Shown one piece after another: positions 5,666-23,349 of a stretch of 64,000 nucleotides of DNA (within the stretch, counting starts at the first letter, position 1; each line of letters begins with the position of its first letter). The notes under the pieces are model-generated. The model saw nothing but the letters and a program-made list of their open reading frames with translations. It had not been told where the DNA came from and searched no databases. Made by a program: the position numbers and the translations under genes. Source of the stretch: Anaerolineae bacterium (GTDB lineage: Bacteria; Chloroflexota; Anaerolineae; Aggregatilineales; J027). The DNA is taken from NCBI GenBank assembly GCA_021463865.1, contig JAJTXY010000001.1, forward strand, positions 62,001 to 126,000, read 5' to 3'.

Positions 5666-7192
5666 CTATCGGCCCACAATCGCAAGTGTGACATCGCGGG
5701 CAAGGTCGGTCATGATATAGGGCAGAATCCCCAAAATCAACGTACCCATTGCGGTGAGCCACAGGGCTGAACGAAGGGCCAATGGTTGTTTATCGGCAAC
5801 CGGGTGGGCGTCACCTTCGATCATGTACATATTCACGATGATGCGCAGATAGTAGTAGGCGGAAACGACACTCCCCAACACACCGATGACCGCCAAGACT
5901 TCGAGATTGGCCTCCAGCGCGGCCTTGAATACAAAGAACTTGCCGATGAACCCAGCGGTTAACGGCACACCCGTCAGACTGAGCATAAAAATGGTCATGG
6001 CGGCAGCAAGCAGAGGGCTGTGCTGCGCGAGGCCTTTGGTGTCGTTCAGGGTAATGGTGTTACGTTCGTTGCGTTCCAAGGCGATGACAACAGCAAACGC
6101 CCCGATATTGGTAAAGGTATAGGCCATCAGATAGACCAACGCGGCTTGGGCGGAGCTATCCCCGACACCAAACGTACCCCCGGCTGCAATCGCAATCAGG
6201 ATGTACCCGCCATGCGCGATACTTGAATAGGCCAGCATACGCTTGAGGTCGGTTTGGGTGATGGCGACAAAATTGCCTAAAATCAGGGTCAAGACCGCGA
6301 TGACCTGTACCGAATCCTGCCAAACATCAATCGCTTTGCCCTGCGAGGCGGATACAACGGCAAGGCCCGTTACCAGTACACGCAGCATGGCAGCGAACCC
6401 ACCTGTTTTGGCCGTCACACTCATGAAGGCGGTCACAGGGGTAGGTGCACCCTGATACACGTCAGGCTGCCACATATGGAATGGCACCGCGCCGACCTTG
6501 AAGCCGAGGGCGATCAATACCATAGCAATGCCAATCAGCAGGGTAAACTGACCCGCGCCTTCACCTTCGAGAATATCAACGGCGGTCTGCCAGACATTGA
6601 CCAGTTCAAAACTACCTGTCGCACCATAAATTAGGGCGATGCCGTAGACCAAAAAGCCGGATGAGAACGCGCCAAGCAAGAAATATTTCATGGCGCTTTC
6701 CTCGCTTTCCAGCATGGGGCGGCGGAACCCGGAGAGGATATACAACGGAATCGAGAGCAGTTCAAGCGCGATGAAGATCATCACCAGATTACGTGACGAC
6801 CCCATCAGCATCGCACCCAGCGTACTAAACAGAATCAGCGTATAGAATTCGCCACGTTCCGTGCCGGTGCGTTCTAGGTAATCATACGACACCATAATGC
6901 CGATGATGCCTGCCATGAGGGAAATGACATTCACCACATGGGTGAACTGGTCTACCACAAATATGCCCTCAAAGGCGGTGGATTTATCACCGATTTCGAC
7001 ACCCGACGCTTGGAGCAGGGCAATTAAAAGCGAAACGCCCAAGCCTATCCCTGCCAGTACCGCTGTATAGACCTTTTTATCTTTGGGAATGAACAGATCG
7101 GCGACGAGCAAAATGCAGGTGCCAAAAGCCAACGCCATCATGGGTAGCGCGGCCCAAATATTCAATTCATCAAACGTGGGGGTTGAAAACAT
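5666..7192 (-). CDS. nuoN: NADH-quinone oxidoreductase subunit N
   Basis: Antiporter-like proton-pumping subunit in the membrane arm of complex I. 508 residues, the usual size, about 14 helices. Family marks include the MGSSRNLVMIFIALELLSIP region with the key helix-5 glutamate, FKVGAVPFHMWQPDVYQGAP with the pump lysine, and a DLKRMLAYSSIAHGGY lysine helix. Last gene of the operon, 77 bases after nuoM and just before a strong terminator. Confidence 0.96.
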   Translation of the reverse strand: MFSTPTFDELNIWAALPMMALAFGTCILLVADLFIPKDKKVYTAVLAGIGLGVSLLIALLQASGVEIGDKSTAFEGIFVVDQFTHVVNVISLMAGIIGIMVSYDYLERTGTERGEFYTLILFSTLGAMLMGSSRNLVMIFIALELLSIPLYILSGFRRPMLESEESAMKYFLLGAFSSGFLVYGIALIYGATGSFELVNVWQTAVDILEGEGAGQFTLLIGIAMVLIALGFKVGAVPFHMWQPDVYQGAPTPVTAFMSVTAKTGGFAAMLRVLVTGLAVVSASQGKAIDVWQDSVQVIAVLTLILGNFVAITQTDLKRMLAYSSIAHGGYILIAIAAGGTFGVGDSSAQAALVYLMAYTFTNIGAFAVVIALERNERNTITLNDTKGLAQHSPLLAAAMTIFMLSLTGVPLTAGFIGKFFVFKAALEANLEVLAVIGVLGSVVSAYYYLRIIVNMYMIEGDAHPVADKQPLALRSALWLTAMGTLILGILPYIMTDLARDVTLAIVGR

Positions 7193-7269
7193 AGCCCTTA
7201 TTTACCCCTGCGAAATTTTGACCGAATCTAAATCGAAAAAGGGGTAGTCCGAAAACCGCCCCATGATTG

Positions 7270-8805
7270 TTATTTACCCGCGACGGCAACTGTATGGACA
7301 AAGTTGACCAAGTGTCCAACCGAGCCATCCATCAATTCAAAGAAGGGACTGGGATAGAGGCCGATCACAAAAATCATGATGACCAGCGGCACCAAAGCGC
7401 CAAGCTCAGTCCAGTTCTTGCTCCATGTCAGGTCTTCGAGTTCCTGATTTTCTTTCTTGTCCAGCGGCCCCATAAAGACCTTGTTGAACATGAATAGGGT
7501 ATATACGGCGGCCAAAATCACACCGAGCGTGGCGACAGCGGTAAACCAGATGCTCAACACATCGGAACTGGCAGAGCCAAGCAGAATAGTGAATTCACCG
7601 ACGAAGCCGTTCAAACTGGGGAGGCCCATGCTGGACAGCGAAATCACCAGCGCGATACCGCTGAACAGGGGCATGACCTTCCAGATACCACCGAAGGCGT
7701 TAATCGCTTTGGTGTGGCGGCGGTCATACAAAATCCCCACCAGCGCAAACAAGCCGCCCGTGCTGATGCCATGATTGACCATTTGCAGCACCGCGCCTTG
7801 AACCCCACTGCTTGTCAGCGAGAAAATCCCCAATACCACGAAACCGAGATGGCTGACCGAGGTATAGGCGACTAATTTCTTGACATCGGTTTGGGCATAG
7901 GCCACCCATGCGCCATAGATAATGCCGATTACCGCGAGGGCCGCAATCCAAGGGGCAAAATCAGCGGAGGCGTTCGGGAAAAAGCCGAGATTAAAGCGGA
8001 TTAACCCGTAAGTCCCCAATTTCAGCAAGATACCCGCTAGGATGATCGAACCAGCGGTGGGGGCTTGGACGTGGGCATCCGGCAGCCATGAGTGCAGCGG
8101 CCACAGCGGAACTTTGATGGCAAACGCGATGAAGAAGCCCAAGAAGAGCAGGCGTTCCGTGTCAGTGCTAAAGCTCAACGCGCCGCTTTGTACCATCTCG
8201 GTAATTACCTTCACGTCAAATGTGCCTGCTTCGTTCCCCAGCCACAAAATCGCCAGCAGCATCAAAATGGAGCCAGCCATTGTGTAGAGGAAGAACTTGA
8301 CCGCTGCATAGCGCCGTTCTTCGCCGCCCCAAATCCCGACAAGAAAGTACATGGGCACGAGGGTCAGTTCCCAGAACACATAGAACAAGAACATATCTTG
8401 CGCCACGAACACACCGAGCATCGCAAATTCGATGAGCAGCATGAATAGGTAGTAGAGCCGGATGCGTTCGTGGATCATGTTGAAGGAAATCAGGATAGAC
8501 AATGGCATGATGAAGGTGGTCAACATAACCAGCCAAATACTGATGCCATCTATCCCGACATGATAGTAAATCCCAAAGGTGGGAATCCATTCGGCAATGT
8601 GCTCTGATTGCAGCCCGGTTTCGTCACTCTTAAATTGGGCCAGCAGCAAAATGGAGAAGCCGAGGGTAATGAGAGAGGTAATCAACGCCCCCCATTTAAT
8701 CCGCTCATCACTCAGCTTGTTTAAAAACAGCAGAATGAAGAAGCCGACCATCGGCGCAAAGAGAGTGACGCTTGTTAGCGAAACGCCTGTTGTTTCGAGT
8801 TGCAT
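7270..8805 (-). CDS. nuoM: NADH-quinone oxidoreductase subunit M
   Basis: Second antiporter-like pump of the complex I membrane arm, 511 residues. Characteristic segments: FYVFWELTLVPMYFLVGIWG with the conserved glutamate, KVPLWPLHSWLPDAHVQAPT with the channel lysine, and DVKKLVAYTSVSHLGFVVLG. Starts 21 bases after nuoL. The C-terminal end is slightly hydrophobic and ordinary. No insertion, in contrast to nuoL and nuoJ of the same operon. Confidence 0.97.
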   Translation of the reverse strand: MQLETTGVSLTSVTLFAPMVGFFILLFLNKLSDERIKWGALITSLITLGFSILLLAQFKSDETGLQSEHIAEWIPTFGIYYHVGIDGISIWLVMLTTFIMPLSILISFNMIHERIRLYYLFMLLIEFAMLGVFVAQDMFLFYVFWELTLVPMYFLVGIWGGEERRYAAVKFFLYTMAGSILMLLAILWLGNEAGTFDVKVITEMVQSGALSFSTDTERLLFLGFFIAFAIKVPLWPLHSWLPDAHVQAPTAGSIILAGILLKLGTYGLIRFNLGFFPNASADFAPWIAALAVIGIIYGAWVAYAQTDVKKLVAYTSVSHLGFVVLGIFSLTSSGVQGAVLQMVNHGISTGGLFALVGILYDRRHTKAINAFGGIWKVMPLFSGIALVISLSSMGLPSLNGFVGEFTILLGSASSDVLSIWFTAVATLGVILAAVYTLFMFNKVFMGPLDKKENQELEDLTWSKNWTELGALVPLVIMIFVIGLYPSPFFELMDGSVGHLVNFVHTVAVAGK

Positions 8806-8826
8806 CCGTCAATAACTCCCAGCAAC

Positions 8827-11217
8827 CTAAATTCCCAGCAGATCACGCAGCGTGGGAAGCAGAATAATTACGATGACTAACAACGCGCCCATCATCAGCG
8901 AGAGCGCATAAGTACGCACATAGCCTGTTTGAGTCTTACGCAGCCGTGACCCCGCTGCCAAGACACCAGTCGCCAACGACATAAAGCCTTTGTCCACCAC
9001 TTGGCGGTCAATCGGTTGGCTGATGACATCCGCCGCGCCTTGGAAGCCTTGCCCAATGATGCGGTCATGGAAGAAGTTGTGCCAGAAATCCCAGTCAATG
9101 GTATTGGCAAGGAATCGCGCTGCCCCTTGGAAAGGATAGACGATGTATTTGAAATAGGCCTCGTCCCAATAGAGTTTGGCATTTGAGAGGGCAAACAAGG
9201 GTTGGTATTGCCCTGTCTCCAACGGGTCTTTTTCCATCGGAATAGGCATCGGCTTACGATAGATCGAGTCCGCTATGCCAATCATGGCTAGGGCGATACC
9301 CGTCGCTAGAATTGCCATAAACCAATTAAACGAGCCGGCGTGAGCGTGGATGACACTTTCTTCAAGGAACAGCGTGAAGCGGTGTTCTCCGAAGAGCCAG
9401 CCAAACAATGGGAAGCCTTTTGGCGCGTTAATAATGAACCCAATAAGGAACGTCCCTATCGCTAAAATCGCCAGCGGGGTTGTCATCAAGGCCGAACTTT
9501 CTGGAGCATGTTCAGCGGCAGCCGTGCGCGGTTTGCCAAAAAATACGAGGCAGATTTGACGCCACGTATAGAAGGCAGTCATCGCGGCGGCGGCAAGTAA
9601 TACCGCTATTGCCAGATACCCTTTGAGTTCGCCTTCGTCAAAACCGACGGTAAAGGCATCTGCGATGATCTCATCTTTTGACCAGAAACCCGCGAATGGG
9701 AAAATGCCTGCTAGAGCCAGTCCGCCAACCAAATATGTCAAGTAGGTGAGGCCCATCTTGTGGCGCAGGCCACCCATATTTCGCATGTCTTGGGGGTCGA
9801 ATTCGTGGTCATCATGATGAGTGTGAGTTTCGTGTTCCTCATGAGTTTCATGTTCGGCATGTTCATCGTGTTCGTCGCCGTGTTCATCATGCCCATGTTC
9901 ATGCGCGTGGTGGTGTCCATGCTCCATCGCGTGAATGACCGAGCCGGAGCCGAGGAACAACAGCGCCTTGAAAAACGCATGGGTGACAAGGTGGAACATC
10001 GCAGCGGCATAGGCCCCCAACCCGACGGCGGCGACCATAAACCCTAATTGGCTGACCGTCGAATAGGCCAGCACTTTCTTGATGTCCCATTGCCCCAACG
10101 CCATAAACCCGGCGGCAAGGGCAGTTGAAATTCCAATAATCGTCACGACAAACGAGGTGAGGTCGGAGTTATAGAAGAAAGAATTTGACCGCACCATCAT
10201 ATAGATACCCGCCGTCACCATCGTCGCGGCGTGAATCAAGGCACTGACGGGGGTTGGGCCTGCCATCGCGTCGGGCAGCCATACAAACAGTGGAATTTGG
10301 GCGCTCTTACCTGTCGCCCCAAGCAGGAAAAACAGAGTAATCAGGGTAATAACGGCATCAAAGTCGAGGTCAATTGAGCCGAAAGTAACTTTGTGATTAC
10401 CTTCTTCAAACCACAATTCAGCTTGGGTAAAGATGCCGTGAATTTCACTACCTGATTCGACATGGGCCGCTTCTTCACCAGCATGTTCGCCCTCTGCCCC
10501 TTCGACAGCAAAGACAGGTGGGGGGGCTTCATCATGTTCCAGATGGATGACTTCGTGGGGTTTGTAATAATCGAGCGTGCCAAACGTCCAGAAGGTCAAG
10601 AAAATCCCCATCAGCAGACCGAAGTCGCCGATACGGTTGACGATAAATGCTTTGCGTGCGGCGTTACTATTGGCCCAGCCAACCGTGCCTTCGGTGGGGT
10701 GTTTGCCCGGTTTATCAAACCAGAAGCCGATGAGCAGGAATGAACACAAACCCACGCCTTCCCAGCCGACGAACATCACCAAGAGGTTATTGCCCGTCAC
10801 CAGAATCAGCATGAACACCAAGAACAAATTTAGATAGACAAAAAAGCGCGGGAAGCGTTCATCTCCGTGCATATAGCCAGTGGCATAAATGTGGATGAGC
10901 GTTCCGACCCCGGTCACTACCAGCATCATGGTGACACTGAGGGTGTCTACACGGAACTGCCAAGGAATATCAATGCCAGCCGATGGGATAGAAATCCACG
11001 AGTGAATCAGTGGGGCATTGACGATGGCCGGTTCGTAGTGTTGATCTACCAGTGTGGCCCAGAGTATCAGCGCGACCACAAACGCAAACGCGCTGGCACT
11101 GACCGCAATGAATCCGGCACCTTTTTCGCCTAGCTTTTTGCCAAAAAAGAGGTTAATCAACATCCCGATCAGGGGGACGACGACTACCAATGAAACCGCA
11201 GAATAAAAACCTTCCAT
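8827..11217 (-). CDS. nuoL: NADH-quinone oxidoreductase subunit L with His-rich insertion
   Basis: Distal proton-pumping subunit of complex I, with the long lateral helix at its C-terminus. At 796 residues it exceeds the usual 610-680. Core motifs are intact: LLVMFVGWEGVGLCSFLLIG, GKSAQIPLFVWLPDAMAGPT and DIKKVLAYSTVSQLGFM. The extra length comes from two loops. One at about residues 219-260 is acidic with scattered histidines. The other at about 430-474, between GSGSVIHA and FDPQDMRNMGGL, holds 17 histidines mixed with Glu/Asp. His-rich loops at the second site are, from memory, found in some other bacterial NuoL proteins; metal binding is an inference. Confidence 0.96.
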   Translation of the reverse strand: MEGFYSAVSLVVVVPLIGMLINLFFGKKLGEKGAGFIAVSASAFAFVVALILWATLVDQHYEPAIVNAPLIHSWISIPSAGIDIPWQFRVDTLSVTMMLVVTGVGTLIHIYATGYMHGDERFPRFFVYLNLFLVFMLILVTGNNLLVMFVGWEGVGLCSFLLIGFWFDKPGKHPTEGTVGWANSNAARKAFIVNRIGDFGLLMGIFLTFWTFGTLDYYKPHEVIHLEHDEAPPPVFAVEGAEGEHAGEEAAHVESGSEIHGIFTQAELWFEEGNHKVTFGSIDLDFDAVITLITLFFLLGATGKSAQIPLFVWLPDAMAGPTPVSALIHAATMVTAGIYMMVRSNSFFYNSDLTSFVVTIIGISTALAAGFMALGQWDIKKVLAYSTVSQLGFMVAAVGLGAYAAAMFHLVTHAFFKALLFLGSGSVIHAMEHGHHHAHEHGHDEHGDEHDEHAEHETHEEHETHTHHDDHEFDPQDMRNMGGLRHKMGLTYLTYLVGGLALAGIFPFAGFWSKDEIIADAFTVGFDEGELKGYLAIAVLLAAAAMTAFYTWRQICLVFFGKPRTAAAEHAPESSALMTTPLAILAIGTFLIGFIINAPKGFPLFGWLFGEHRFTLFLEESVIHAHAGSFNWFMAILATGIALAMIGIADSIYRKPMPIPMEKDPLETGQYQPLFALSNAKLYWDEAYFKYIVYPFQGAARFLANTIDWDFWHNFFHDRIIGQGFQGAADVISQPIDRQVVDKGFMSLATGVLAAGSRLRKTQTGYVRTYALSLMMGALLVIVIILLPTLRDLLGI

Positions 11218-11249
11218 AAATTTACGAGGCCCCGTTCTGTATTACCGGA

Positions 11250-11564
11250 TTAACCCTGCAACGCATGTAAATCGTCCACATCGGTGCTTTGTCGGGTGCG
11301 GTAGATGGTGACAATTAAGGCCAACCCGACTGCAACTTCGGCAGCAGCGACGGTCATCACAAAAAACACCATCAGATGCGCGTCCATCTGATTCCACTGG
11401 CGGGCAAAGGCCACCAGTGCCAAGTTTGCCGAATTCAGCATTAACTCAATGGACATGAAAATCAAGATGGCATTCCGACGCAGCAGCACCCCCATTGAGC
11501 CGAGTGTAAACAACACCGCGCTCAACAGCACAAATAATTCGGTAGCGACTTCTGGCTTATCCAT
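11250..11564 (-). CDS. nuoK: NADH-quinone oxidoreductase subunit K
   Basis: Small three-helix subunit (104 residues) at the junction of the membrane arm. [20 protein letters not shown] and [14 protein letters not shown] carry the conserved glutamate of helix 2; the second conserved glutamate lies in [15 protein letters not shown]. The start chosen is ATG 11564 after AGGGAAGG; an open frame extends upstream into nuoJ but the added residues have no nuoK character. Ten bases separate it from the nuoJ stop. Confidence 0.95.
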
Positions 11565-11574
11565 AACCTTCCCT

Positions 11575-12876
11575 CTAATCACCGCTGCTATCGGCTGGAT
11601 TTTTACGTAAGGATTGCATGTATTCTTCAACCGTTGGGTTGCCGGGAACATTTGCCATACGACGGCGGAAGCGCGGTTTCTTGGGTGTTTCATGTTGTTT
11701 GGTCAACACAATCACACCAACCATCGCCGTCAGTAGCAGCAGGCCGATCACTTCAAATGGCAGCAGATAATCGGTAAACAGCAGTTGACCCATCCCCTCC
11801 GCACTACCAAAATCAGGATTGTTATCCAGCGCGAACCACAAAATCTTGGGGCGTATTGTGCTACCCGTTGTATCTTGGGTTACGACCCACAACACCCCGG
11901 TATTTTGGTCAATGACTTTTTTATCCACCTGCACCAGCGCGTCAAGGTCAAGTTTTTCATCGGTATCGCCGCGTTCATCAATGGCAGCACGAATGTTGCC
12001 TTGAGGATAGGTCGCTAGGGTATATTCGCCCTCTTTGATTTCAAAATGGGCGGCTTGACCATAATCGAGACTCTTGACCAGCACCATCGGGTCGTCACCC
12101 GGCTCGGTGATGTCTGCGACTTCAATCGGGCAAGTGGTTGTGCCATCCGCACACGGAATGGCATGAACCACCGTCAAACGGGCATTATCTTTTTCATCGT
12201 TCGGGTCAATACGCCCCTCCACCTGCAAGGCCTGTACCTCACCATTGGTAGCGTCGGCAGTCAAGACATACGAGAGGACGCCATTACCTGCCAGAAAAAC
12301 CGAGGTTTCCAGCACGATATTTTCTGGAAGCAACTCGGCCTCATGTGGAACAACCTGCGCGGTGTAGCTGCCCGCTGGAAATTCCTCAAAATCTGAGGCT
12401 TCTCGATAGAGCAAATCCGAGACTACCTTTTCGCCATCAATGTAGACATCTACCGCGTCGGTTCCAGCGGCAGCGTGAACAAAACGGAAAATGGGTTCGG
12501 CGGGTTCGGGTTCGCTGGTATCAAGGTCGCTGCGGATAATGGCGAGACCAGCCACAAACAAAATCACCATCGTGACGCCAAGTGTAGCAGGAGCCAGCCA
12601 CGGAAAGCGCTGTGTCTCTTGGGGTAAAACACGCTCGGCACCCATCAACATGATCACAAATAGGAATAAGACCATGATCGCGCCTGCGTAGACCGTAATT
12701 TGTACGGCAAACAGGAACGGTGCATTGAGCATCAGATAGAGAAACGCCACACACGCAAAGTTTATAATGAGGAACAATGCACTGTGGACAGCATTTTCAC
12801 TAATCAGCATCATGACGGCGGCAAGGATCGAAAGCGCCCCAATCATGATAAACAGAGCTAATTCTGTGCCTACCAT
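11575..12876 (-). CDS. nuoJ: NuoJ with two inserted DUF4397-like repeats
   Basis: Core is a normal NuoJ: helices 1-4 at about residues 5-113, including [20 protein letters not shown] and [14 protein letters not shown] (the helix-3 region), and helix 5 after [17 protein letters not shown] at about 366-390. At 433 residues it is more than twice the usual 170-200. The excess, about 117-357, sits between helices 4 and 5 and reads as two related beta-rich units: [20 protein letters not shown] near 131 and RLTVVHAI near 233. The first closely follows the DUF4397 pattern seen in secreted proteins. The Arg/Lys-rich tail after helix 5 places the tail inside and the insert outside the cytoplasm. The frame is unbroken across both junctions. 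The second unit has a Cys pair at 242 and 249. Confidence 0.92.
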
Positions 12877-13028: not shown

Positions 13029-13523
13029 TTATTTCGGATTTTCCATGTCTGGAATGGGCCGATCATAGCTGTGTGGCTCCACCTGATGGGGTGTATCTTG
13101 ACCCCCCGGCGGCACCGGATCAATTAACATGTCTTTGGTATAGATCGAGTCGCGCCGATCCGTGAAACTCAGTTTGTATTCATGTTCCAATACAATGGCT
13201 TCAGTGGGGCAGGCATCCTCACAATACCCACAAAAGATGCAGCGCAGCATGTTGATTTCGTAGGTTTTGGCATAACGCTCACCGGGACTGTAACGCTCAT
13301 CATCGGTGTTTTCGGCGGCCTCAACCCAGATGGCATCAGCAGGACAGGCAGCGGCACACAGCGCACACCCGATACATTTTTCCATCCCATTGTCATAACG
13401 CTTCAAAGCATGGCGGCCCTTATAGCGTTCGCGCACAGGCCGTTCGACTTCAGGATATTGAAAGGTCGCTTTTTCCTGAAGCACATGCTTGATGGTGGTC
13501 ATCAATCCATTAATCAAACCCAT
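13029..13523 (-). CDS. nuoI: NADH-quinone oxidoreductase subunit I
   Basis: Peripheral-arm subunit that carries clusters N6a and N6b and passes electrons toward NuoB. 164 residues. Two CxxCxxCxxxCP motifs are present: CIGCALCAAACPADAI and CIFCGYCEDACPTEAIV. The C-terminal extension of about 45 residues is Pro-rich and ordinary for this subunit. Lies 29 bases after nuoH; the 152-base gap before nuoJ is the longest gap inside the operon. Confidence 0.97.
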   Translation of the reverse strand: MGLINGLMTTIKHVLQEKATFQYPEVERPVRERYKGRHALKRYDNGMEKCIGCALCAAACPADAIWVEAAENTDDERYSPGERYAKTYEINMLRCIFCGYCEDACPTEAIVLEHEYKLSFTDRRDSIYTKDMLIDPVPPGGQDTPHQVEPHSYDRPIPDMENPK

Positions 13524-13552
13524 TGTATCTACCCTTTACTTACCCGTACCGA

Positions 13553-14890
13553 CTATGATTTTGAACCACCGGGTCGGAGATTCTTGGCGGCTTCATAGGC
13601 CACAAATGGGATGGACAGGATACCTCCCACAAATTGCAGCACAATGTACCCGATGCTCACTTTTTCTTGTTCAATTTCGTCTATGTTAAGCACGGTTTCC
13701 GGCGTGGTGCTGCGATTAAACAGATAGCCCAGCGCACCGACAATCACAAACAGGATCGCCACCGAAATCAGATAGGCAGTGGGGCCACCTTCTTGCTCGA
13801 TCACAATAGAAACGGCTGTCCATGCGACGGCCAGCATTGAGAGAGGCAGCAGAACTTTCCACCCAAAAGCCATCAGGCGGTCATAACGGGGGCGAAAGAT
13901 GCTCCCACGCACCCAGACCATAATAATCAGTAAGGGGATGACCTTACCAATTAGCACTGGCAGAGCCAACAGCGGCGCACCTTGTACAAGGCCAAAGCCA
14001 TCATGATAGCCGCCCATAAACATGGTGACGAAAATAACCGAGATGCCAATCATGTTGACGTATTCGGCAAGGAAGAACATGGCGAATTTCATCCCGCTGT
14101 ATTCGGTGATATGGCCTGCAACCAATTCCTGTTCGGCTTCGGGCATATCAAACGGCGCACGGCTAATTTCGGCCATTAGGGCGATGAACATAATAATCGC
14201 GGCAAGGGGGTTCTGGAAAATGAACCACTTGAGGAATAGGCCCGATTGTTCGCCGATGATGTCGCCAATGCTCATCGAACCCGCCAGCATAATCGGCACC
14301 GCAAAAACTGTTCCGAGGCTGAGTTCATAACTTATCATGCTGGCACTGGCCCGCAACGCCCCCAACAGCGCATATTTGTTATTGCTGGCCCAGCCGGCAA
14401 GGGTGATGCCATACACGCTGATGCTGGTCACGGCCAACAGCCACAGTACCCCGACATTGACATCGGTGAAGCCCTGTGCCATCTCGTACCACTTGTCATC
14501 AAACCAAGGGACGTAGATATTCGGGCCAAGCGGCACAACGGCCAAGACAATCAATGATGGGACGAGTTTGAGCAGCGGGGCAAAGGAATAAACGGCTCGA
14601 TCCGCGCCATCGGGAATGATCTCTTCTTTAAAGATCAGCTTGATCCCTTCCGACACGGGTTGCAGCAGACCTTTGGGGCCAGCCCGATTTGGCCCAAGCC
14701 GGGATTGCATAAAACTGATGAAGCGGCGTTCCAGCACAGTGGTATAGGCGAACCCCGTCAGCAGCACAAAAAAGACCAACAAGGTCGTGACGATAGCATG
14801 AACCGTTGAGCAGGTCGAATTGCTGGAACACGTAACAATTGAGTTGGGGTCATTTGGCCCCATTAGGAGTTGTTCAAGAAAGTCCATCAT
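13553..14890 (-). CDS. nuoH: NADH-quinone oxidoreductase subunit H
   Basis: Membrane subunit at the quinone site, 445 residues, about 100 longer than the E. coli form. Family marks: ERRFISFMQSRLGPNRAGPK, GWASNNKYALLGALRASASM, and AEISRAPFDMPEAEQELVAG with the glutamates near the quinone channel. Extra residues lie at the N-terminus (a segment with two cysteines, CSSNSTC) and at the C-terminus (two further hydrophobic segments at about 365-430). Starts with two Met codons, 5 bases after the nuoG stop. Confidence 0.96.
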   Translation of the reverse strand: MMDFLEQLLMGPNDPNSIVTCSSNSTCSTVHAIVTTLLVFFVLLTGFAYTTVLERRFISFMQSRLGPNRAGPKGLLQPVSEGIKLIFKEEIIPDGADRAVYSFAPLLKLVPSLIVLAVVPLGPNIYVPWFDDKWYEMAQGFTDVNVGVLWLLAVTSISVYGITLAGWASNNKYALLGALRASASMISYELSLGTVFAVPIMLAGSMSIGDIIGEQSGLFLKWFIFQNPLAAIIMFIALMAEISRAPFDMPEAEQELVAGHITEYSGMKFAMFFLAEYVNMIGISVIFVTMFMGGYHDGFGLVQGAPLLALPVLIGKVIPLLIIMVWVRGSIFRPRYDRLMAFGWKVLLPLSMLAVAWTAVSIVIEQEGGPTAYLISVAILFVIVGALGYLFNRSTTPETVLNIDEIEQEKVSIGYIVLQFVGGILSIPFVAYEAAKNLRPGGSKS

Positions 14891-14895
14891 GGCAT

Positions 14896-17478
14896 TTAAT
14901 CCCCAGTTGCAGCTAGTGCTTGGGCAACTTTTTCAATACTGCCTGCGACCATTGGCGCAAATGGGCCGGGTTGGTCACTCAGGCATTTAGGCAGGGTAAT
15001 CACCCCCGCCGGAATCGTTTCATTTACGATTATCTGAACGGTGAGGCTGGCACCTTCAAGGTTAATTTCAACCATGTCCCCGTCCTGAAGTTTCAGTTTT
15101 TGGGCATCGGCAGGGCTGAAATTCGCATGGGCGGGTGGAATACGCAGCGACATAATCTCACTGCGGACGAACAGCATCCCCCGGTCATACAATAGAGTCG
15201 TGGGCACAACCAGCAGCCCCTTCGCCTTTGATTTTTCAGAGGAAACAGGGACGACGTTCAACTTGGCCTCGGCGTTTTCGGCTGATACGGGCCACTGGAC
15301 TCCAATTCCACCCGTGTTTTGATAGGCTGTTCCACCATAATATTGGTCGGTGCCGCCGACATCCGGGAATTGGCGTTCCACTTGGGCAAGATTTTTATAG
15401 CCCATCGCGCTGTAGGCCGCTACTGATTTCGTAATTTCGGCCATCACCGCACCCGCCGATACTTTGGCGGTGGATTTATCAATGGCATGGCGCACTTGGG
15501 CGAAAATCTTCCAATCCGGGAAACTTTCCCCGATAACCCCCTGCGCGGCATAAAACCGCTGTACCCGCCGTTCGCCGCTGGTGAATGTGCCTTCACGCTC
15601 GGCAAAACTTTGCTGAGGCAGCACCACATCGGCGATTGCAGTAGTGGCGGTGTCAAATTGGGAGGTGACGATGACAAAATCGGCGTTCCTCAAATTGGCA
15701 GCGGCGATGTCTTCCCCAACTGGGTTACAGCCTGCCACAATCAGCACCGCCGGAGGATTTTGCAGCAGTTCGGCGGTGGCTTCAGCCGTATAGCCAAGAT
15801 CAATCGCGCCCTGTGTATTCGCACCCGGCCAGACTGGGATTAGACCATTGTTGGTGCGTCCGACATGTCCGGTCAAAATCAAGACATTCGCGCAGGCTTG
15901 CATCAATTCGGCGTGTTGGGCGAGTGTAACACCTTCTGCACCGCAGAACACGACCACATTATCCGCACCCGCAATAGCTTCAGCGGCGGCGGCGTAACGG
16001 TCATCAGCCTTCACCTTCTTGAGGGCTTTTTGCAGTTCGGCAAATCCTTCGGCGCGGTCTGCTTTGTGGTGGTTGCCGTTGACAATGTGGGCGGTCAGGC
16101 TGTTGATTGCACCCACAGCGTCGCCATATTCGTGTCGGAGCGAGAACTTAGCATAGCGATCCATCTTGGTTGGGCGACCATTTAAAACGACCACCGTCGC
16201 GCCCCGATCACGGGCAGCTTTTGCACGTAGCCACCAAATGGGCGCTTCTTCTTCAAGGTCGGTAGCAACGAGAACAATGACGGTGCCCTTGCCCATCGTA
16301 TTAAAGTTCGAACCTTTAGCAATACCCACCTGCTTGACGACTTCACCCCCACTCATCGTGGCGGGCCAAATCCCTAATGATTTTTCGCTGCCGCCTACTG
16401 CCAATACCAATTGGCGCAGTTCCCACAGGTCTTCATTCGAGAGACCGGGGCCAGCAATCGCGCCGACACTGGTTGCGCCCTTCAATTTATCAATGATCTG
16501 TTTGAAGGCTTTATCCCAAGTGGTTTCGATTAGGGTGTTCTTTTCGCGGTGCAGTGGGGTCACTAGGCGGTCAATGTGGCGGGTGTGGTGATGTCCAAAG
16601 CGGGTTTTGTCCGAAATCCAGATTTCATTGACGTGTTCGTTTTGGCGCGGCATTACCCGTTTGATGATGATCCCACCACCGGAATCACGGTCTAGCCGGG
16701 TGCTGAGGCTGATATTTGCACCTTCTGGGCCATAGGGATCAATACTGGGGACTTCTTTAAGTTCCCACGGACGCGCCCCAAAGCGGAAGTCGGCGGTTGT
16801 TAATGCCCCCACCGGGCAAATATCAGTGGTGTTGCCACTAAATTTGCTGTCAAAGGGTGGATCGGAGACCGTGACGATTTGCAAGGCCCGCCCGCGTTCA
16901 TGGAAAGCCAGCACGTCGTCGCCGGCTAATTCGTCGGAGAAACGGATACAGCGGGCACATTGAATACAGCGTTCGCGGTCAAGATAAATCAATTCCCCCA
17001 GCGGCACATGCTTGGCGAGGTGCATCTTGTCCTCAAAATAGAAGACCGACACCCCCGGCCCGTGTCGCATGGTCAGGTTTTGCAGTGGACATTCACCACC
17101 CTTATCGCAAATTGGGCAATCGAGCGGGTGGCTGGTGAGCAAAAATTCCACAATGTCTTCGCGGGCTTCGGTGACTTGTTGGGTGTTGGTGCGGATGGCG
17201 AGGCCATCATAGACCGTTTGGGTACAGGCGGTTTGCATTTTGGGCATCCAGCGAATTTTCGGGCTGCCCTGTTCATCCAAAAGTACAGTGCCGGATTCTT
17301 TATCTTTCTCAACCGACCCCATCTCCACCAGACACATACGGCACATGCCCACCGGAGCCATCTTGGGATGATAGCAGAACACAGGAATATCATTGTCGGC
17401 ATAAAACTTGGCGACATCTACCAAGTTTGTCCCCGCCGGAACTTCATAGCCGACGCCATCTATATAAATTGTTACCAT
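14896..17478 (-). CDS. nuoG: NADH-quinone oxidoreductase subunit G
   Basis: Large iron-sulfur subunit of the NADH arm, 860 residues. N-terminal 2Fe-2S ferredoxin domain (CYHPKMAPVGMCRMC), the His-ligated cluster segment HPLDCPICDKGGECPLQN, and a 4Fe-4S block CIQCARCIRF with TDICPVGAL. The remainder is a molybdopterin-oxidoreductase-like domain, as in all NuoG, without evidence that it binds a cofactor. Separated by 97 bases from the small TPR-like gene upstream, so it may have its own ribosome loading, but no separate promoter is evident. Confidence 0.96.
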   Translation of the reverse strand: MVTIYIDGVGYEVPAGTNLVDVAKFYADNDIPVFCYHPKMAPVGMCRMCLVEMGSVEKDKESGTVLLDEQGSPKIRWMPKMQTACTQTVYDGLAIRTNTQQVTEAREDIVEFLLTSHPLDCPICDKGGECPLQNLTMRHGPGVSVFYFEDKMHLAKHVPLGELIYLDRERCIQCARCIRFSDELAGDDVLAFHERGRALQIVTVSDPPFDSKFSGNTTDICPVGALTTADFRFGARPWELKEVPSIDPYGPEGANISLSTRLDRDSGGGIIIKRVMPRQNEHVNEIWISDKTRFGHHHTRHIDRLVTPLHREKNTLIETTWDKAFKQIIDKLKGATSVGAIAGPGLSNEDLWELRQLVLAVGGSEKSLGIWPATMSGGEVVKQVGIAKGSNFNTMGKGTVIVLVATDLEEEAPIWWLRAKAARDRGATVVVLNGRPTKMDRYAKFSLRHEYGDAVGAINSLTAHIVNGNHHKADRAEGFAELQKALKKVKADDRYAAAAEAIAGADNVVVFCGAEGVTLAQHAELMQACANVLILTGHVGRTNNGLIPVWPGANTQGAIDLGYTAEATAELLQNPPAVLIVAGCNPVGEDIAAANLRNADFVIVTSQFDTATTAIADVVLPQQSFAEREGTFTSGERRVQRFYAAQGVIGESFPDWKIFAQVRHAIDKSTAKVSAGAVMAEITKSVAAYSAMGYKNLAQVERQFPDVGGTDQYYGGTAYQNTGGIGVQWPVSAENAEAKLNVVPVSSEKSKAKGLLVVPTTLLYDRGMLFVRSEIMSLRIPPAHANFSPADAQKLKLQDGDMVEINLEGASLTVQIIVNETIPAGVITLPKCLSDQPGPFAPMVAGSIEKVAQALAATGD

Positions 17479-17575
17479 TTTACTCAGCCCTTTTTTGAGC
17501 TATAAAACCACTTCGATGTTCTCTCAAAATCAATTTCCCACCCGCCCTTCTCTACTCAATGGGGGATGAGGATTC

Positions 17576-17833
17576 TCAAAAAAATCCTGTACCTGCCTGC
17601 CGCAAGCCTTGTCGGGCGCGGTCAATCAGGGCTTGTTGCAAATAACCCCAGTCACTTGCTTCCAACTCCGCCATCCCCAACAAGATGGCCTGCTCAAAAT
17701 CGGCTTGGGCGGCTGCGCGGTCATCAGTGGCAAGCCAGTATTCGCCCCGCAGCACGTAGTTTACCGCAGCATTGGGGTGTTGCTCAATGGCTCGATTCAA
17801 CAACCGCAAGCGCATATCTACGTTATTTGCCAT
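17576..17833 (-). CDS. Small TPR-like protein inside the nuo operon
   Basis: 85 residues, no signal peptide. Helical pairs resemble one and a half tetratricopeptide repeats: MRLRLLNRAIEQHPNAAVNY then LRGEYWLATDDRAAAQADFE. Repeats of this kind bind proteins, so an assembly or stability factor for the nearby NuoE-F-G module is possible, though this is inferred only from position. The start codon overlaps the nuoF stop by one base (TAATG), implying translational coupling to nuoF. Not a standard complex I subunit. Confidence 0.6.
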   Translation of the reverse strand: MANNVDMRLRLLNRAIEQHPNAAVNYVLRGEYWLATDDRAAAQADFEQAILLGMAELEASDWGYLQQALIDRARQGLRQAGTGFF

Positions 17834-19164
17834 TAATCACCCGCTGGTTCCGCAACCTCTTCCAACTGCTTTTTGACCGGGGCAGGTTGTTTGGGTTTGG
17901 CCGCCGGAGCAGGGGTCTTGATATAGGCCACATATTCACTGCGGAAATGTTTCAGGGTGGCGAGAATGGGATTGATCGCAAAGTCGTTCAAGGCGCACAG
18001 GCTCTTGCCATTCATCTGCTTGGCGACATTTTCCAATTTTTCAAGATCGAGCATGGTGGCTTCGCCGTGAATGACGTGTTCCATCAATTTCGCCAACCAA
18101 TGTGTCCCTTCACGACAGGGCGTGCATTTGCCACAGCTTTCATGCTTAAAGAATTTAATCATCTTATAAGCGGCCCACACCATATCGGTGCTTTCGTCCA
18201 TCAAAATGAACGAGGCCGAGCCGAGTGTTGACCCTAATTTGCCAAGCGCCTCATAGGTCATGGGTGTATCCAACATCTGTTCAGTCACCGGGATGACGGG
18301 GCCAGATGCTCCGGAGGGCAACAGAGCTTTAAAGGCTTTGTTCGTGCCAGTGCCACCCGCCTTATCAAATAGCAGTTCACGGAAAGTCGTCCCTAATGGC
18401 ACTTCATAGTTACCCGGACGCGCCACATGCCCGCTGACGCTGAAAATCTTGGGGCCGGGGCTTTCGGGGGTGCCGATTTTTTTATATTCCGCCGCGCCGT
18501 TGACGAGGATCCAAGGCACATTGGCAAGGGTTTCGACGTTATTGACGACGGTGGGTTCATAATAGAGACCGCCGCCTTTTTGGGCTGGGAAGGGTGGACG
18601 CACACGTGGCTGACCTAAGAACCCTTGTAGGCTGTTCAGCAGGGCGCTTTCTTCCCCGCAGATATAGGCTCCCGCGCCGAGATGGACAAACATATCACAC
18701 GACCAGTTGCCGCCGAGGATATTTTGCCCGATCAAATTTTGCTCACGGGCTTCAGCAATGCAGGCTTCAAGGTTATGGGCCAAATCCCAGAACTCGCCTC
18801 GGCAGTAGATATAAACCGCTGTTGCTTGGATGGCATAGGCGCAGATCATCGCCCCTTCAATCAATTGATAGGGGTTCTTTTCCATAATCTGGCGATCTTT
18901 AAAAGTGCCCGGTTCGCTTTCGTCGGCGTTCACCACCACATATTTCACTGGTTCATTTTTGGGGATAAAGCTCCATTTACGGCCTGCGCTAAACCCCGCG
19001 CCACCACGTCCGCGCAAATTGGAGTCAATCACAATATTGATGACTTCCTCTGGGGTATGCTGTGTAACGGCCTTTTTAAAGCCTTCCCATCCCCCATTGG
19101 TGGTGTATACATCCAATTTACCAATATCGGGAATGTCCAAATCGCGCAAGAGAATGTATGCCAT
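17833..19164 (-). CDS. nuoF: NADH-quinone oxidoreductase subunit F
   Basis: NADH-binding flavoprotein, entry point of electrons. 443 residues. FMN/NADH site: GRGGAGFSAGRKWSFIP, NADESEPGTFKDR, and GAGAYICGEESALLNSLQG. The 4Fe-4S cluster motif is ESCGKCTPCREGT with the distant fourth Cys in KSLCALNDF. The start is ATG 19164, six bases after AGGATAGG; a TTG six bases upstream was set aside. The C-terminal tail of about 30 residues is Ala/Pro/Lys-rich and outside the family core. Confidence 0.97.
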   Translation of the reverse strand: MAYILLRDLDIPDIGKLDVYTTNGGWEGFKKAVTQHTPEEVINIVIDSNLRGRGGAGFSAGRKWSFIPKNEPVKYVVVNADESEPGTFKDRQIMEKNPYQLIEGAMICAYAIQATAVYIYCRGEFWDLAHNLEACIAEAREQNLIGQNILGGNWSCDMFVHLGAGAYICGEESALLNSLQGFLGQPRVRPPFPAQKGGGLYYEPTVVNNVETLANVPWILVNGAAEYKKIGTPESPGPKIFSVSGHVARPGNYEVPLGTTFRELLFDKAGGTGTNKAFKALLPSGASGPVIPVTEQMLDTPMTYEALGKLGSTLGSASFILMDESTDMVWAAYKMIKFFKHESCGKCTPCREGTHWLAKLMEHVIHGEATMLDLEKLENVAKQMNGKSLCALNDFAINPILATLKHFRSEYVAYIKTPAPAAKPKQPAPVKKQLEEVAEPAGD

Positions 19165-19171
19165 GTCCAAC

Positions 19172-19684
19172 CTATCCTGTAAATCCTATTTCAGTGTTTG
19201 TATTTTTATCTGTCATCAACCAGCCTATAACGGCCCCCAAAAAGATTGGGGTGTAGCCCGCGATGGCTACTATTGGCCCAATGACAATCCCTAGTCCAAT
19301 CGAATAGAAGAGACCATACAATCCAATGACCATCAGGGGGAGGTAAAATACACGCTCGCCCCACCATGCCAGCCCCAACAGCAGCAGCACCCCAATCATT
19401 ATCGAGATATAGGCTACTGCGTCCACCATGCGCCGCGCTAGATAAGCGGGGGGACGTTTCACTTCAATTTCTGTCCCATTCAAAATCGGCCTGTCTTTGC
19501 CCATCATGCGATTCCAATGGGAAACACGCTGACTGGGATCAGAATTGAGGTAGTCAGGCGGCCATTTCGCGTTAAAAAGGGCAAATGCCACTAAAAAAAA
19601 TCCTATAATGAGTAATGGCAAACTTACCCAAACCGCGCCCCGTTGATCGTATTGATCTACACTTGGGTCTGGCCTAAATTCCAT
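19172..19684 (-). CDS. Four-helix membrane protein of unknown function in the nuo operon
   Basis: 170 residues with hydrophobic helices at about 17-40, 88-108, 113-130 and 132-155, and a polar loop at 41-85. No motif recognised. It is located between a GNAT gene (overlap of 11 bases) and nuoF (gap of 7 bases), which places it firmly in the operon. It is not a counterpart of any standard Nuo subunit. A membrane factor for complex I assembly or an unrelated passenger are both possible. Confidence 0.6.
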   Translation of the reverse strand: MEFRPDPSVDQYDQRGAVWVSLPLLIIGFFLVAFALFNAKWPPDYLNSDPSQRVSHWNRMMGKDRPILNGTEIEVKRPPAYLARRMVDAVAYISIMIGVLLLLGLAWWGERVFYLPLMVIGLYGLFYSIGLGIVIGPIVAIAGYTPIFLGAVIGWLMTDKNTNTEIGFTG

Positions 19685-20111
19685 CGGTTATCCGTTTGGT
19701 AACGTACACCATATCCTCATGGACATGGTAGCCTGCCCGTTTAAACGTGGCGAGGCTGGCAACATTTTCGGTCTCAATCATCGCGGCATAAATGCCAATG
19801 CCCTCGGATGCCAGATACTCCTCAGCGGCCTTGACCAATTGTCCGCCGATGCCCTTGCCACGAAAATCGGGATGCACCGCCAAGCGATTCACCCAGCCTT
19901 TGCGGGTATCATGCGTCGCCATGACCAGCCCAATCAACTGCTCACCTTCATACAACCCAATGACGGCTTGAATGCCACGTGCCATTTGTTGTTCAAAGGC
20001 TTCACGGGAATCACGCCCGGTGGGTTTGACGGTGGTCAAGCCAGCGGCTTTCCACAACTCCATGATGGCGTCGTAATCGTCTACGGTCAGGCGAACAGGT
20101 GCAGAAGGCAT
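19674..20111 (-). CDS. GNAT family N-acetyltransferase
   Basis: 145 residues with a standard GNAT fold. The acetyl-CoA pyrophosphate-binding loop is FRGKGIGGQLVKAAEEYL, preceded by the beta-4 segment GWVNRLAVHP, and followed by ENVASLATFKRAGY. The order resembles ribosomal-protein and amine acetyltransferases, but the substrate cannot be told. The start is ATG 20111; a longer frame running into nuoE lacks support. It lies 17 bases after nuoE and overlaps the next gene by 11 bases. Acetylation of a complex I protein is an untested idea based on position alone. Confidence 0.8.
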   Translation of the reverse strand: MPSAPVRLTVDDYDAIMELWKAAGLTTVKPTGRDSREAFEQQMARGIQAVIGLYEGEQLIGLVMATHDTRKGWVNRLAVHPDFRGKGIGGQLVKAAEEYLASEGIGIYAAMIETENVASLATFKRAGYHVHEDMVYVTKRITDGI

Positions 20112-20128
20112 ATAAGAAGACGCTCCGA

Positions 20129-20620
20129 TTAATCCGCAGCCGAATCTTTGGCGTCGGCCCGCCACTGATCGAGCAATGCTTTCATCTTGTCCATGTCCAA
20201 ATTTTCGACATAGTGGAAATTGCATTGCAGCATCGGTGCTTTGTCGCACGCGGCAAGGCACATTACATGCTCAACGGTGAATAGGCCGTCTTCGGTTGTG
20301 CCGCCCTCTTCAATGCCCAGATGGTCGAGCAGGGCCTGATGAAATTGATCGGCTCCGCGCAGGGCACATGGAAAGTCGGTACATACCTGTAGCCAATATT
20401 TGCCTTTGGGTTTTTCCGAATACATCGTATAAAAACCCGCGATGCTTTTGACCTGTGTGGGGTCAATTTCGCACAGTACGGCGACTTCTTCAATGGCTTC
20501 GGGTGATACCCAGCCAAATTCTTCCTGTGCCACATACAACAGTGGCATCACCGCCGAGCGTTTATCAGGATATTTGCTGAAAATTTTTTGGATACGTTCC
20601 GCGTATTTTTCTGCCAGCAC
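20129..20620 (-). CDS. nuoE: NADH-quinone oxidoreductase subunit E
   Basis: Thioredoxin-like 2Fe-2S subunit (cluster N1a), partner of NuoF. 163 residues. The four ligands appear as CTDFPC and CLAAC, preceded by a helical N-terminus with the family segment PLLYVAQEEFGWVSPEAI. GTG start at 20620, eight bases after GGAG. Followed closely by the GNAT gene. Confidence 0.96.
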   Translation of the reverse strand: MLAEKYAERIQKIFSKYPDKRSAVMPLLYVAQEEFGWVSPEAIEEVAVLCEIDPTQVKSIAGFYTMYSEKPKGKYWLQVCTDFPCALRGADQFHQALLDHLGIEEGGTTEDGLFTVEHVMCLAACDKAPMLQCNFHYVENLDMDKMKALLDQWRADAKDSAAD

Positions 20621-20680
20621 AATCTTTTCTCCGGCATGTTGGATGGCTTACCCATCCCATCTAATCATCTTTGTTTTTGT

Positions 20681-20709
20681 AGGGGTAGGGTCTTAGACCC
20701 ACCCCCCCT
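20681..20709. repeat. GC-rich palindrome between nuoD and nuoE
   Basis: GGGTCT-T-AGACCC is a perfect stem, extended imperfectly by G-rich and C-rich flanks. It sits in the 98-base gap after nuoD. It looks like a small dispersed palindromic element of the REP type rather than a terminator, since no T-tract follows on the transcribed strand and the operon continues. Confidence 0.45.
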
Positions 20710-20718
20710 TTTGCTTTC

Positions 20719-21975
20719 CTATCTATCGCAATCCCCCAGCACAATGTCAATGCTGCCGATAATCCCTACGAGATCGGCAATCATGTGATTTTTGGCAAGT
20801 TTTTCCAACGCGCTGAGATTGACAAACGACGGGGTACGGAAATGAACCCGCATCGGGTTGGGTGATCCATCGCTGGCGAGGAAGCAACCCAGTTCACCAC
20901 GCGGCCCTTCAATCGAAACATACACTTCGCCTTTGGGTGGACGGAAGCCTTCTGTCCACAGCTTGAAGTGATGAATGACTGCTTCCATGCTGCGGCCTAG
21001 TTCGGCACGCGGCGGCGGCACATATTTGCGATTGTCTGAACGGAACGGCCCTTTTTCTTTTTGCAGGCGCTTCATGCCCTGTTCGATAATCCGCAGGCTT
21101 TGGCGCATTTCGGCAATCCGCACGATGAAACGGTCATACACATCGCCGTGCTGCCCCAGCGGGACATCAAATTCAAACTGCTCATACGAGGAGTAGGGCA
21201 TCGCTTTGCGGATGTCCCAATTAACCCCTGAGCCACGCAAGGCCGCCCCGGTTAACCCATAGGCGACGGCATCTTCTGCGCTGATGAATCCAATCCCCTG
21301 CGTCCGATCTACAAACACTGGGTTTTGGGTGATGATTTTGTCATAGTCGTCAATCTTGGCCGGGAAGGTATCCAAGACATTTTGGACAGCACCTTCAAAT
21401 TCATCTGGCAGATCGCGCCAGAGGCCACCCGGACGGAAATAGGTACTCATCATGCGCTGCCCGGAGACCATCTCAAAAATATCGAGCAGCACTTCCCGTT
21501 CGCGGAAGGCATAGGTCATGGTGCTAGTCACACCTAAGTCCAACCCGCCAATGCCCATCCAAACCAGATGGCTATTGATACGGGTCAGTTCCGCCAACAC
21601 CACGCGGGCAATTTGGGCACGCATGGGCACATCGAGTTCAAACAGCTTTTCCATCGCAAGGCAGTAGACCAGACCATTCCCCATCGGGTTGAGATAGTCC
21701 ATGCGGTCAGTCATGACAATGGACTTCTCGTAGGTCTTGTACTCCATATTCTTTTCAATGCCCGTATGGAGAAAGCCGACATCGGGGATACAGCTTAGGA
21801 CTTCTTCGCCTTCGAGTTCAAGGATGACACGCAAAACGCCGTGCGTGCTGGGGTGTTGTGGCCCCATGTTGAGAATCATGCTCTCGCCCGTAAAGGCTTT
21901 TTCTGAAACCAGCCCTTTTAGCTCTTCGATGTTGCCTTCCCAGACGGCATGATGCGTTTGAGGGTCTGCGGTCAT
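20719..21975 (-). CDS. nuoD: NADH-quinone oxidoreductase subunit D
   Basis: 49-kDa-type subunit that forms the quinone pocket with NuoB, 418 residues. Family segments: NMGPQHPSTHGVLRVILELE with the quinone-site histidine, GFLHTGIEKNMEYKTY, DYLNPMGNGLVYCLAMEKL with the pocket region, and a C-terminal DIVLGDCDR. The N-terminal 30 residues are variable. Starts 12 bases after nuoC. Confidence 0.97.
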   Translation of the reverse strand: MTADPQTHHAVWEGNIEELKGLVSEKAFTGESMILNMGPQHPSTHGVLRVILELEGEEVLSCIPDVGFLHTGIEKNMEYKTYEKSIVMTDRMDYLNPMGNGLVYCLAMEKLFELDVPMRAQIARVVLAELTRINSHLVWMGIGGLDLGVTSTMTYAFREREVLLDIFEMVSGQRMMSTYFRPGGLWRDLPDEFEGAVQNVLDTFPAKIDDYDKIITQNPVFVDRTQGIGFISAEDAVAYGLTGAALRGSGVNWDIRKAMPYSSYEQFEFDVPLGQHGDVYDRFIVRIAEMRQSLRIIEQGMKRLQKEKGPFRSDNRKYVPPPRAELGRSMEAVIHHFKLWTEGFRPPKGEVYVSIEGPRGELGCFLASDGSPNPMRVHFRTPSFVNLSALEKLAKNHMIADLVGIIGSIDIVLGDCDR

Positions 21976-21987
21976 TTCACTACCTGC

Positions 21988-22509
21988 CTATTTCTTTGCA
22001 AACGGCTTGTGTTTGGCGATTTCATCATAGTTGAACGAGAACTGCACCGTTTCGTATCCCAGCGGGTAATCTTTGCGCTGTGGATAGCCTTGCCAATCAT
22101 CGGGCATAAAGATGCGGCGCATGTCGGGATGACCGGAAAACACGATACCCATCATGTCATAGGCTTCGCGTTCTTCCCAATTCGCGCTGGGCCAGAGTTT
22201 GGTCATCGAGGGGACCGGGGCATCACCATCGCTCCACAGCACTTTGATGCGCAGACGGCGGTTAAATGCCATTGAATAGAGGTGATAACACAGACCGAAA
22301 CGCGGTTCGGCAGGATAATAGTCTACGGCGGTAATGTCGGACAGCAGGTTATATTTCAGTCCTTCAGCATCACGCAGATGTTGGGCAACTTCGATGATTT
22401 TCTCGGCTTTGACAATCACGGTCAGTTCGCCGCGAAATTCTTCCGAGCCTTCAACTGCATCACCAAAGGTATCAATCAGGGTTTGTTTGGGGTCAAGGGG
22501 GTGTGACAT
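21988..22509 (-). CDS. nuoC: NADH-quinone oxidoreductase subunit C
   Basis: 30-kDa-type peripheral subunit, separate from NuoD (not fused as in E. coli). 173 residues ending with the family signature block WEEREAYDMMGIVFSGHPD, RIFMPDDWQGYPQRKDYPL. Four bases after nuoB. No cofactor of its own; it braces the quinone module. Confidence 0.96.
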   Translation of the reverse strand: MSHPLDPKQTLIDTFGDAVEGSEEFRGELTVIVKAEKIIEVAQHLRDAEGLKYNLLSDITAVDYYPAEPRFGLCYHLYSMAFNRRLRIKVLWSDGDAPVPSMTKLWPSANWEEREAYDMMGIVFSGHPDMRRIFMPDDWQGYPQRKDYPLGYETVQFSFNYDEIAKHKPFAKK

Positions 22510-22513
22510 AGTG

Positions 22514-23002
22514 TTATTTCCCTGCCCATTCGTACCACTTCATTTCCTTGACTTTTTCGTGCAAGGTCATGAAGCCGTGAATTAATTGTTCGGGGCGGGG
22601 TGGGCAGCCAGCGACATACACATCTACCGGCACAATTTCATCCACGCCTTGCACAATCGCATAGTTGTTGAAGACCCCACCGCACGAGGCACAGTCGCCC
22701 ATCGCCAGCACCCACTTGGGTTCGGGCATTTGGTCATACAGTTGGCGCAGCACGGGGGCCATCTTGCGGCTGACCCGTCCGGCGACAATCATCAAGTCGG
22801 CTTGACGTGGACTAGCCCGCATGAGTTCCATCCCGAAGCGCGATGCATCATAATAGGGCGCTTGGGTACTCATCATTTCAATGGCGCAGCACGCCAGACC
22901 AAACAACATCGGCCACATCGCACGGGTGCGGCCCCAATTCACAGCGTCTTCCAACTTGGTAGTGACGACGCCTAGATTGCCAAGTTTGCTGCTTACTCCC
23001 AT
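22514..23002 (-). CDS. nuoB: NADH-quinone oxidoreductase subunit B
   Basis: Carries cluster N2, the last electron donor before quinone. 162 residues. The unusual tandem cysteine pair is seen in [12 protein letters not shown], with the other ligands in [10 protein letters not shown] and GCPPRPEQL. The start was placed at ATG 23002, six bases after GGAGG, giving a 10-base overlap with nuoA; an upstream in-frame ATG at 23023 would overlap nuoA further. Confidence 0.97.
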
Positions 23003-23349
23003 TCGAGACCTCCAATTAACCATTCATACGCGAAACCGACGGTCAAGATGAAGAAAAAGACACCCATCACCAATAAACCATAAAGTCCTAAGTCGCGGAA
23101 AATCACTGCCCACGGCAGGAAAAAGATCACTTCAATATCAAACAAAATGAACAACATGCCCACACGATAGAACTTGATTGGGACTTTTCGCATCCCGCCG
23201 CCGATGGGTCGCATCCCACTTTCATAGACCGCCTGTTTGCGGGGTTCGGGATGATAGGGGCCAAAGATGCGGGAAAGGAAAATAATCAGAATGCCGACGC
23301 CAGTCGCCAACAAGAATAGAGGCAGGATGGGAGCGTAATCAGATAACAC
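22993..23349 (-). CDS. nuoA: NADH-quinone oxidoreductase subunit A
   Basis: First gene of the operon, a three-helix subunit next to the quinone tunnel, 118 residues. The conserved loop between helices 1 and 2 is [13 protein letters not shown], followed by [20 protein letters not shown] with the acidic residues of helix 2. GTG start, with GGAG six bases before. The 5' leader is about 50 bases from the predicted transcription start. Confidence 0.96.

Follow-up and report, generated by a model that had tools for sequence, protein, structure and literature searches.

The window, by which we mean the whole stretch of 64,000 nucleotides from an Anaerolineae bacterium analysed here, encodes a NuoJ subunit of complex I, a normal five-helix protein except that some 240 additional residues separate helix 4 from helix 5. 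This insert was gained a single time, by the common ancestor of five of the order's families. Judging from its sequence relatives, it was most likely captured from the organism's own stock of secreted proteins with multiple DUF4397 units, and we lean towards the view that it serves as an adaptor in the broad sense, docking or bracing, on the outer face of the membrane arm.

The nuoJ gene and its two-unit insertion

The nuoJ gene is an unbroken frame of 433 codons (11575..12876; all features of the window named here lie on the minus strand) between nuoI and nuoK. According to the open reading frames, it belongs to a complete nuoA-N operon on a single strand with the genes in order. NuoJ begins with transmembrane (TM) helices 1-4 (residues 2-115; 12532..12873), where Pfam matches residues 20-115, continues with the insert and TM helix 5 (residues 359-393; 11698..11802; NCBIfam stretch 360-394), and ends in a basic C-terminal tail that is expected to be cytoplasmic (residues 394-433; 11578..11697). 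The Oxidored_q3 family (PF00499) was matched in two stretches, one on each side of the insert (E 2.3e-39). The NCBIfam NuoJ models likewise match both flanks, yet score under their whole-protein cut-offs. A first-pass annotation made from the sequence had described a single uninterrupted frame with a normal NuoJ around some 240 additional residues, and both the frame and the Pfam matches on the two flanks bear this out. It placed the insert at 11806-12528 (residues 117-357), which is roughly right; the true insert comprises approximately residues 116-355, since F356-G357 is NuoJ's own and present in insert-free relatives too. F356-G357-S358 (11803..11811) forms the end of NuoJ's own loop before helix 5, and FGS is also found in insert-free NuoJ of the order.

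A frameshift or an assembly join, the artefacts against which the annotation had cautioned, can be ruled out: the frame is unbroken, and the alignment of relatives shows identical junctions in carriers throughout the order (48 genomes). Together with the bimodal loop lengths described below, these junctions mean that the insert is neither chance nor an assembly join. A recent foreign insertion was also rejected, as the insert differs little from the remainder of nuoJ in GC and GC3.

The insert opens with a Pro/Glu-rich entry linker (residues 116-128; 12493..12531), in which P128 is present in 87% of NuoJ inserts. The first lobe (residues 129-221; 12214..12492) is identified by Pfam, by the models and by conservation as a DUF4397 domain, predicted to be a beta-sandwich, with the motif R131, D143, Y145 and G169. 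The second lobe (residues 231-351; 11824..12186), a predicted beta-sandwich and diverged second copy, is delimited by hhalign and the models, and by Z-scores of 9-12 to HGSNAT and the AlgF C-domain. It contains the cysteine pair C242/C249 (12130..12153), a candidate disulphide according to the cysteine counts given below.

DUF4397 (PF14344) was matched by Pfam at NuoJ residues 131-242 (E 7.1e-16; 59.3 bits versus a gathering cut-off of 30.6) and in all 34 carriers of alignment A1. The second unit searched alone (residues 233-357) gave no Pfam match. Profiles of units 1 and 2 built from the carriers align with each other (hhalign probability 96.9%, E 1.5e-10), and unit 2 is judged by this profile-profile comparison to be a diverged copy of unit 1. 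Of the earlier proposal of two related DUF4397-like units, the relatedness and the identity of unit 1 therefore stand, but a profile search detects DUF4397 confidently once rather than twice, unit 2 lying below Pfam detection.

The remaining genes of the operon are nuoN, nuoM, nuoL and nuoK (5666..11564), with names read from the sequence, and nuoI, H, G, F, E, D, C, B and A (13029..23349); NuoL and NuoH were confirmed by Pfam and NCBIfam. Two unrelated frames sit between nuoE and nuoF, namely a multi-helix membrane protein of 170 aa that Pfam does not match (19172-19684) and a frame that, read by eye, is GNAT acetyltransferase-like (19674-20261). The product of nuoL (8827-11217) is 796 aa long; it has an acidic insert around residues 225-285 and, in a later loop, a stretch rich in His (HGHHHAHEHGHDEHGDEHDEH...). 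The nuoH gene (13553-14890) extends about 85 residues, partly hydrophobic, past its Pfam domain; such a long NuoH is common to families f6/f7 and most insert carriers, and not to f3. A second membrane-arm cluster lies elsewhere in the same genome (L242:6879-17189, contig C37) with no NADH-module genes adjacent. It contains nuoA, H, J, K, L, two nuoM-like genes and nuoN; its NuoL copy likewise has a His-rich loop, and its NuoJ is 199 aa long without the insert.

Distribution, gain and origin

In order to trace the insert, 61 genomes of the order (Anaerolineae-type Chloroflexota) from eight families, f1-f8, were sampled. The insert was present in 48 of the 49 genomes of families f1, f2, f4, f5 and f8, the exception being G022, in which only a second type of NuoJ was matched and an assembly gap is possible. 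It was absent from all 12 genomes of f3, f6 and f7. In class-wide (249 genomes) and phylum-wide (301 genomes) samples, which overlap with each other and with the order, the matches listed include no DUF4397-bearing NuoJ from outside the order. Named carriers among the matches listed are metagenome-assembled Chloroflexota/Anaerolineae genomes, the nearest being Chloroflexi bacterium CFX5 (97% identical).

The measurable TM4-TM5 loops of NuoJ are bimodal in length, with 96 distinct loops of 9-34 residues and 49 of 213-287. Two further loops of 122 residues both belong to family f124 (G522/G561; L169:3497-4489, plus strand, and L170). They occupy the same TM4-TM5 position and are unrelated to the DUF4397 insert, with a weak, sub-threshold Pfam match to P2 (E 2e-4). 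Apart from f124, the unusually long NuoJ frames outside the order, where fetched, were ordinary NuoJ with long upstream frames or C-terminal tails. This loop has taken insertions at least twice in Chloroflexota.

A tree was built from NuoH, I, J, K and L of 57 genomes, dropping from NuoJ the columns filled in less than 70% of rows, which removed the insert. On this tree one change suffices: all carriers fall on one side of a branch with SH-aLRT support of 100, and the nearest insert-free families are f6/f7, followed by f3. The 170-aa membrane protein was considered as a small partner gene gained together with the insert and rejected; it is present throughout f1, and its matches elsewhere are scattered and weaker, so it does not track the insert.

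Within the genus, dN/dS of the insert is 0.05-0.09 compared with 0-0.07 for the core, with the dS of the insert against G001 near saturation. The insert is under strong purifying selection. Outside the genus, identity to the insert of the window is 15-35%, and the fold is kept between families.

Besides nuoJ, the genome of the window has DUF4397 arrays at four loci, where strong units tend to take turns with weak ones; one of these loci encodes a protein of 372 aa in which two DUF4397 stretches are combined with a fasciclin domain. The profile of the two-lobe NuoJ insert matches secreted proteins of the same and sister families nearly end to end. Matches in the insert-free families f6/f7 include G015 (7-213; E 6.6e-36) and G014 (4-215), and those in f3 genomes are absent or weak. 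The two-lobe module thus existed as a unit in secreted-type proteins of sister families, and since secreted proteins have it both there and in the carriers' own families, NuoJ most likely captured one. In a tree of 31 NuoJ inserts and 40 secreted units, the two groups split at only 70/78 support, so that the unit tree by itself fixes neither the donor protein nor a single capture.

Predicted fold and side of the membrane

AlphaFold2 (AF2) was run on single chains, both for full-length NuoJ and for the insert alone with 34 sequences. The full-length model has helices at residues 2-25, 29-49, 53-82, 94-115 and 359-393 and beta strands from 129 to 351. In the model of the insert alone (pLDDT 92.2, pTM 0.87), two tandem beta-sandwiches are predicted with high confidence. 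The best solved two-lobe match is the extracellular domain of PepT2 (5a9h; Z 14.9, 2.8 A over 175 residues, covering residues 8-235 of the insert model), and that of PepT1 follows (7nqk; Z 14.8, 3.5 A, 186 residues); the full-length NuoJ model also ranks these PepT chains first. For single lobes, the matches are HGSNAT, with a Z of about 11, and both domains of AlgF, with Z 9.0-9.5. Identity between the insert and PepT in the structural alignment is 8-14%, and a sequence search of the PDB with the insert gave no match to PepT. Pfam gave a signal of AlgF (PF11182) to lobe 1 (E 0.01-0.07; 13-15.6 bits) that did not pass the cut-off of 34.4.

As predicted for this NuoJ, an outer loop of the membrane transporters PepT1 and PepT2 (SLC15A1/A2) holds a tandem pair of beta-sandwich lobes (Z about 15 over the pair), described for PepT as two immunoglobulin-like lobes (PMC4597091). 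At about 10% identity there is no detectable sequence relationship, and host protein, kingdom and mechanism differ. The PepT domain binds trypsin, and transport does not suffer appreciably when the domain is taken away (PMC4597091). AlgF also has two extracytoplasmic beta-sandwich domains, but is a free periplasmic protein of alginate acetylation, where it mediates protein-protein interaction; its authors themselves noted its likeness to PepT (PMC10641220). Likeness of fold is no proof of like function.

Compared with NuoJ/Nqo10/ND6 in general, the protein retains the five helices, the conserved TM3 segment and the nuoI-nuoK position in a complete operon, and differs by about 240 residues where the usual TM4-TM5 loop has 9-34. 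With the secreted DUF4397 repeat proteins it shares the DUF4397 character of lobe 1 and the two-lobe unit, which recurs there (e.g., in the fasciclin-domain protein of G000:C8). In contrast to these, whose chains are secreted or anchored, the unit in NuoJ sits inside a polytopic core respiratory subunit. Complex I of Paracoccus and of mitochondria likewise has additional mass on the outer face of the membrane arm, but in the form of beta-hairpins or separate accessory subunits rather than of a two-lobe domain inside NuoJ.

Several observations bear on the side of the membrane. Among 49 inserts, the number of cysteines is 0 (31 inserts), 2 (17) or 4 (1) and never odd. The two cysteines of a pair are mostly near each other. 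In f1 the pairs are found where lobe 2 begins, in f8 within lobe 1 and in some f2 members elsewhere; as related rows share them, they represent only a handful of independent events. This suggests that paired cysteines are gained and lost together as disulphides in an oxidising location. The C-terminal tail is basic (9 K/R, 5 D/E) and the insert acidic (15 K/R, 47 D/E). In fly complex I, the ND6 TM3-4 loop is among the quinone-site loops on the matrix side and touches NDUFA9 (PMC10036122), so the TM4-TM5 loop is expected on the opposite, outer face. In E. coli, NuoJ residues 142 and 145 have been named as a potential link to the periplasmic surface (PMC8357420). Cysteine parity, charge pattern and ND6 topology together argue strongly for an extracytoplasmic insert, as had been proposed in the first-pass annotation. 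The intact operon and core further suggest that the assembled complex I carries it.

Possible roles of the outer domain

The conserved residues of the insert (R131, D143, Y145, G169, R233 and G273) are also those of the secreted DUF4397 family. Few are specific to NuoJ, namely F163, D255 and the junction F356-G357. As nearly all conserved residues are common to the secreted units, nothing points to a single binding site retained by all carriers. This pattern speaks against both an enzyme and a strictly conserved binding site; it fits a brace as well as a docking module whose partners differ between lineages. An enzyme was rejected because no invariant residue set was found beyond the DUF4397 motif common to secreted proteins.

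We posit the following sequence of events. NuoJ would be a functional core subunit in a complete complex I of 14 subunits. Its outer loop between TM4 and TM5 would have been replaced once, in the ancestor of the five families, by a two-lobe DUF4397 unit donated by the organism's own secreted multi-DUF4397 proteins. Tethered at both ends by short linkers, the unit would stand on the extracytoplasmic face of the membrane arm. There the beta-sandwich pair would probably act as a non-enzymatic adaptor, either docking an extracytoplasmic protein or complex or bracing the outer face of the arm, with a design like that of the PepT1/PepT2 extracellular domain and a duty like that of AlgF. The more specific proposal that complex I serves as an extracytoplasmic scaffold, with the NuoJ module specifically recruiting a component of the wall, a secreted protein or another respiratory complex, is tentative and in our estimate has about one chance in four.

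The main rival to such an outer-face adaptor is a structural brace only, with the lobes folding back on the outer parts of NuoJ/NuoK/NuoA/NuoH or NuoN and stabilising the arm with no outside partner, which we regard as possible though on the unlikely side. In mitochondria, IMS-side accessory subunits stabilise the arm. The short linkers at both ends of the insert and conservation at the level of the fold rather than of a patch agree with bracing, but packing on the conserved core should keep NuoJ-specific surface residues, of which few are seen (F163, D255), and the closest characterised relatives of the fold work as binding modules. Extra outer mass that stabilises the arm has a precedent in Paracoccus complex I (PMC11522691), and extensions of E. 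coli core subunits overlap accessory subunits (PMC8357420). Furthermore, TM4 of ND6 moves between complex I states (PMC10036122), so that a clamp at TM4-TM5 could matter.

It is improbable that the domain is a tolerated passenger, a harmless, well-folded appendage kept by inertia in a loop that accepts insertions. Secondary loss was not seen in 48 genomes of five families and dN/dS is low, although selection against misfolding alone could give such values; the unrelated 122-aa insert in the same loop of another Chloroflexota family and the removal of the PepT domain without impaired transport (PMC4597091) speak for tolerance. That the negative insert is an acidic antenna, gathering protons or cations or repelling wall polymers at the outlet face of the pump, is very improbable: all 34 inserts in the alignment have a negative net charge, but over a very wide range (-5 to -46), and the secreted DUF4397 domains of the same genome are acidic too (-2 to -14 per domain), so that acidity looks like a family trait and was rejected as a NuoJ-specific one.

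Few membrane proteins are as conserved as the core subunits of complex I, which is usually elaborated by added subunits, tails or short loops; NuoJ moreover has its place at the hinge of proton coupling. In the present case such a subunit acquired an entire two-domain module, which was fixed once and retained across five families. No mention of NuoJ together with DUF4397 was found in the open-access papers searched, of which three mention DUF4397 at all, and while complex I itself is well known, we found no description of a variant in which a core subunit has captured a two-lobe outer domain. The carriers provide a natural comparison for an outer-face role, both with insert-free sister families and with the insert-free second NuoJ of the same genome. 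The insert would extend the list of two-lobed outer inserts of transporters from animals to a bacterial respiratory pump. If complex I indeed acts as a scaffold in these bacteria, the pump would also organise what lies outside the membrane, a bacterial counterpart, reached by convergence, of the extracellular domain of PepT.
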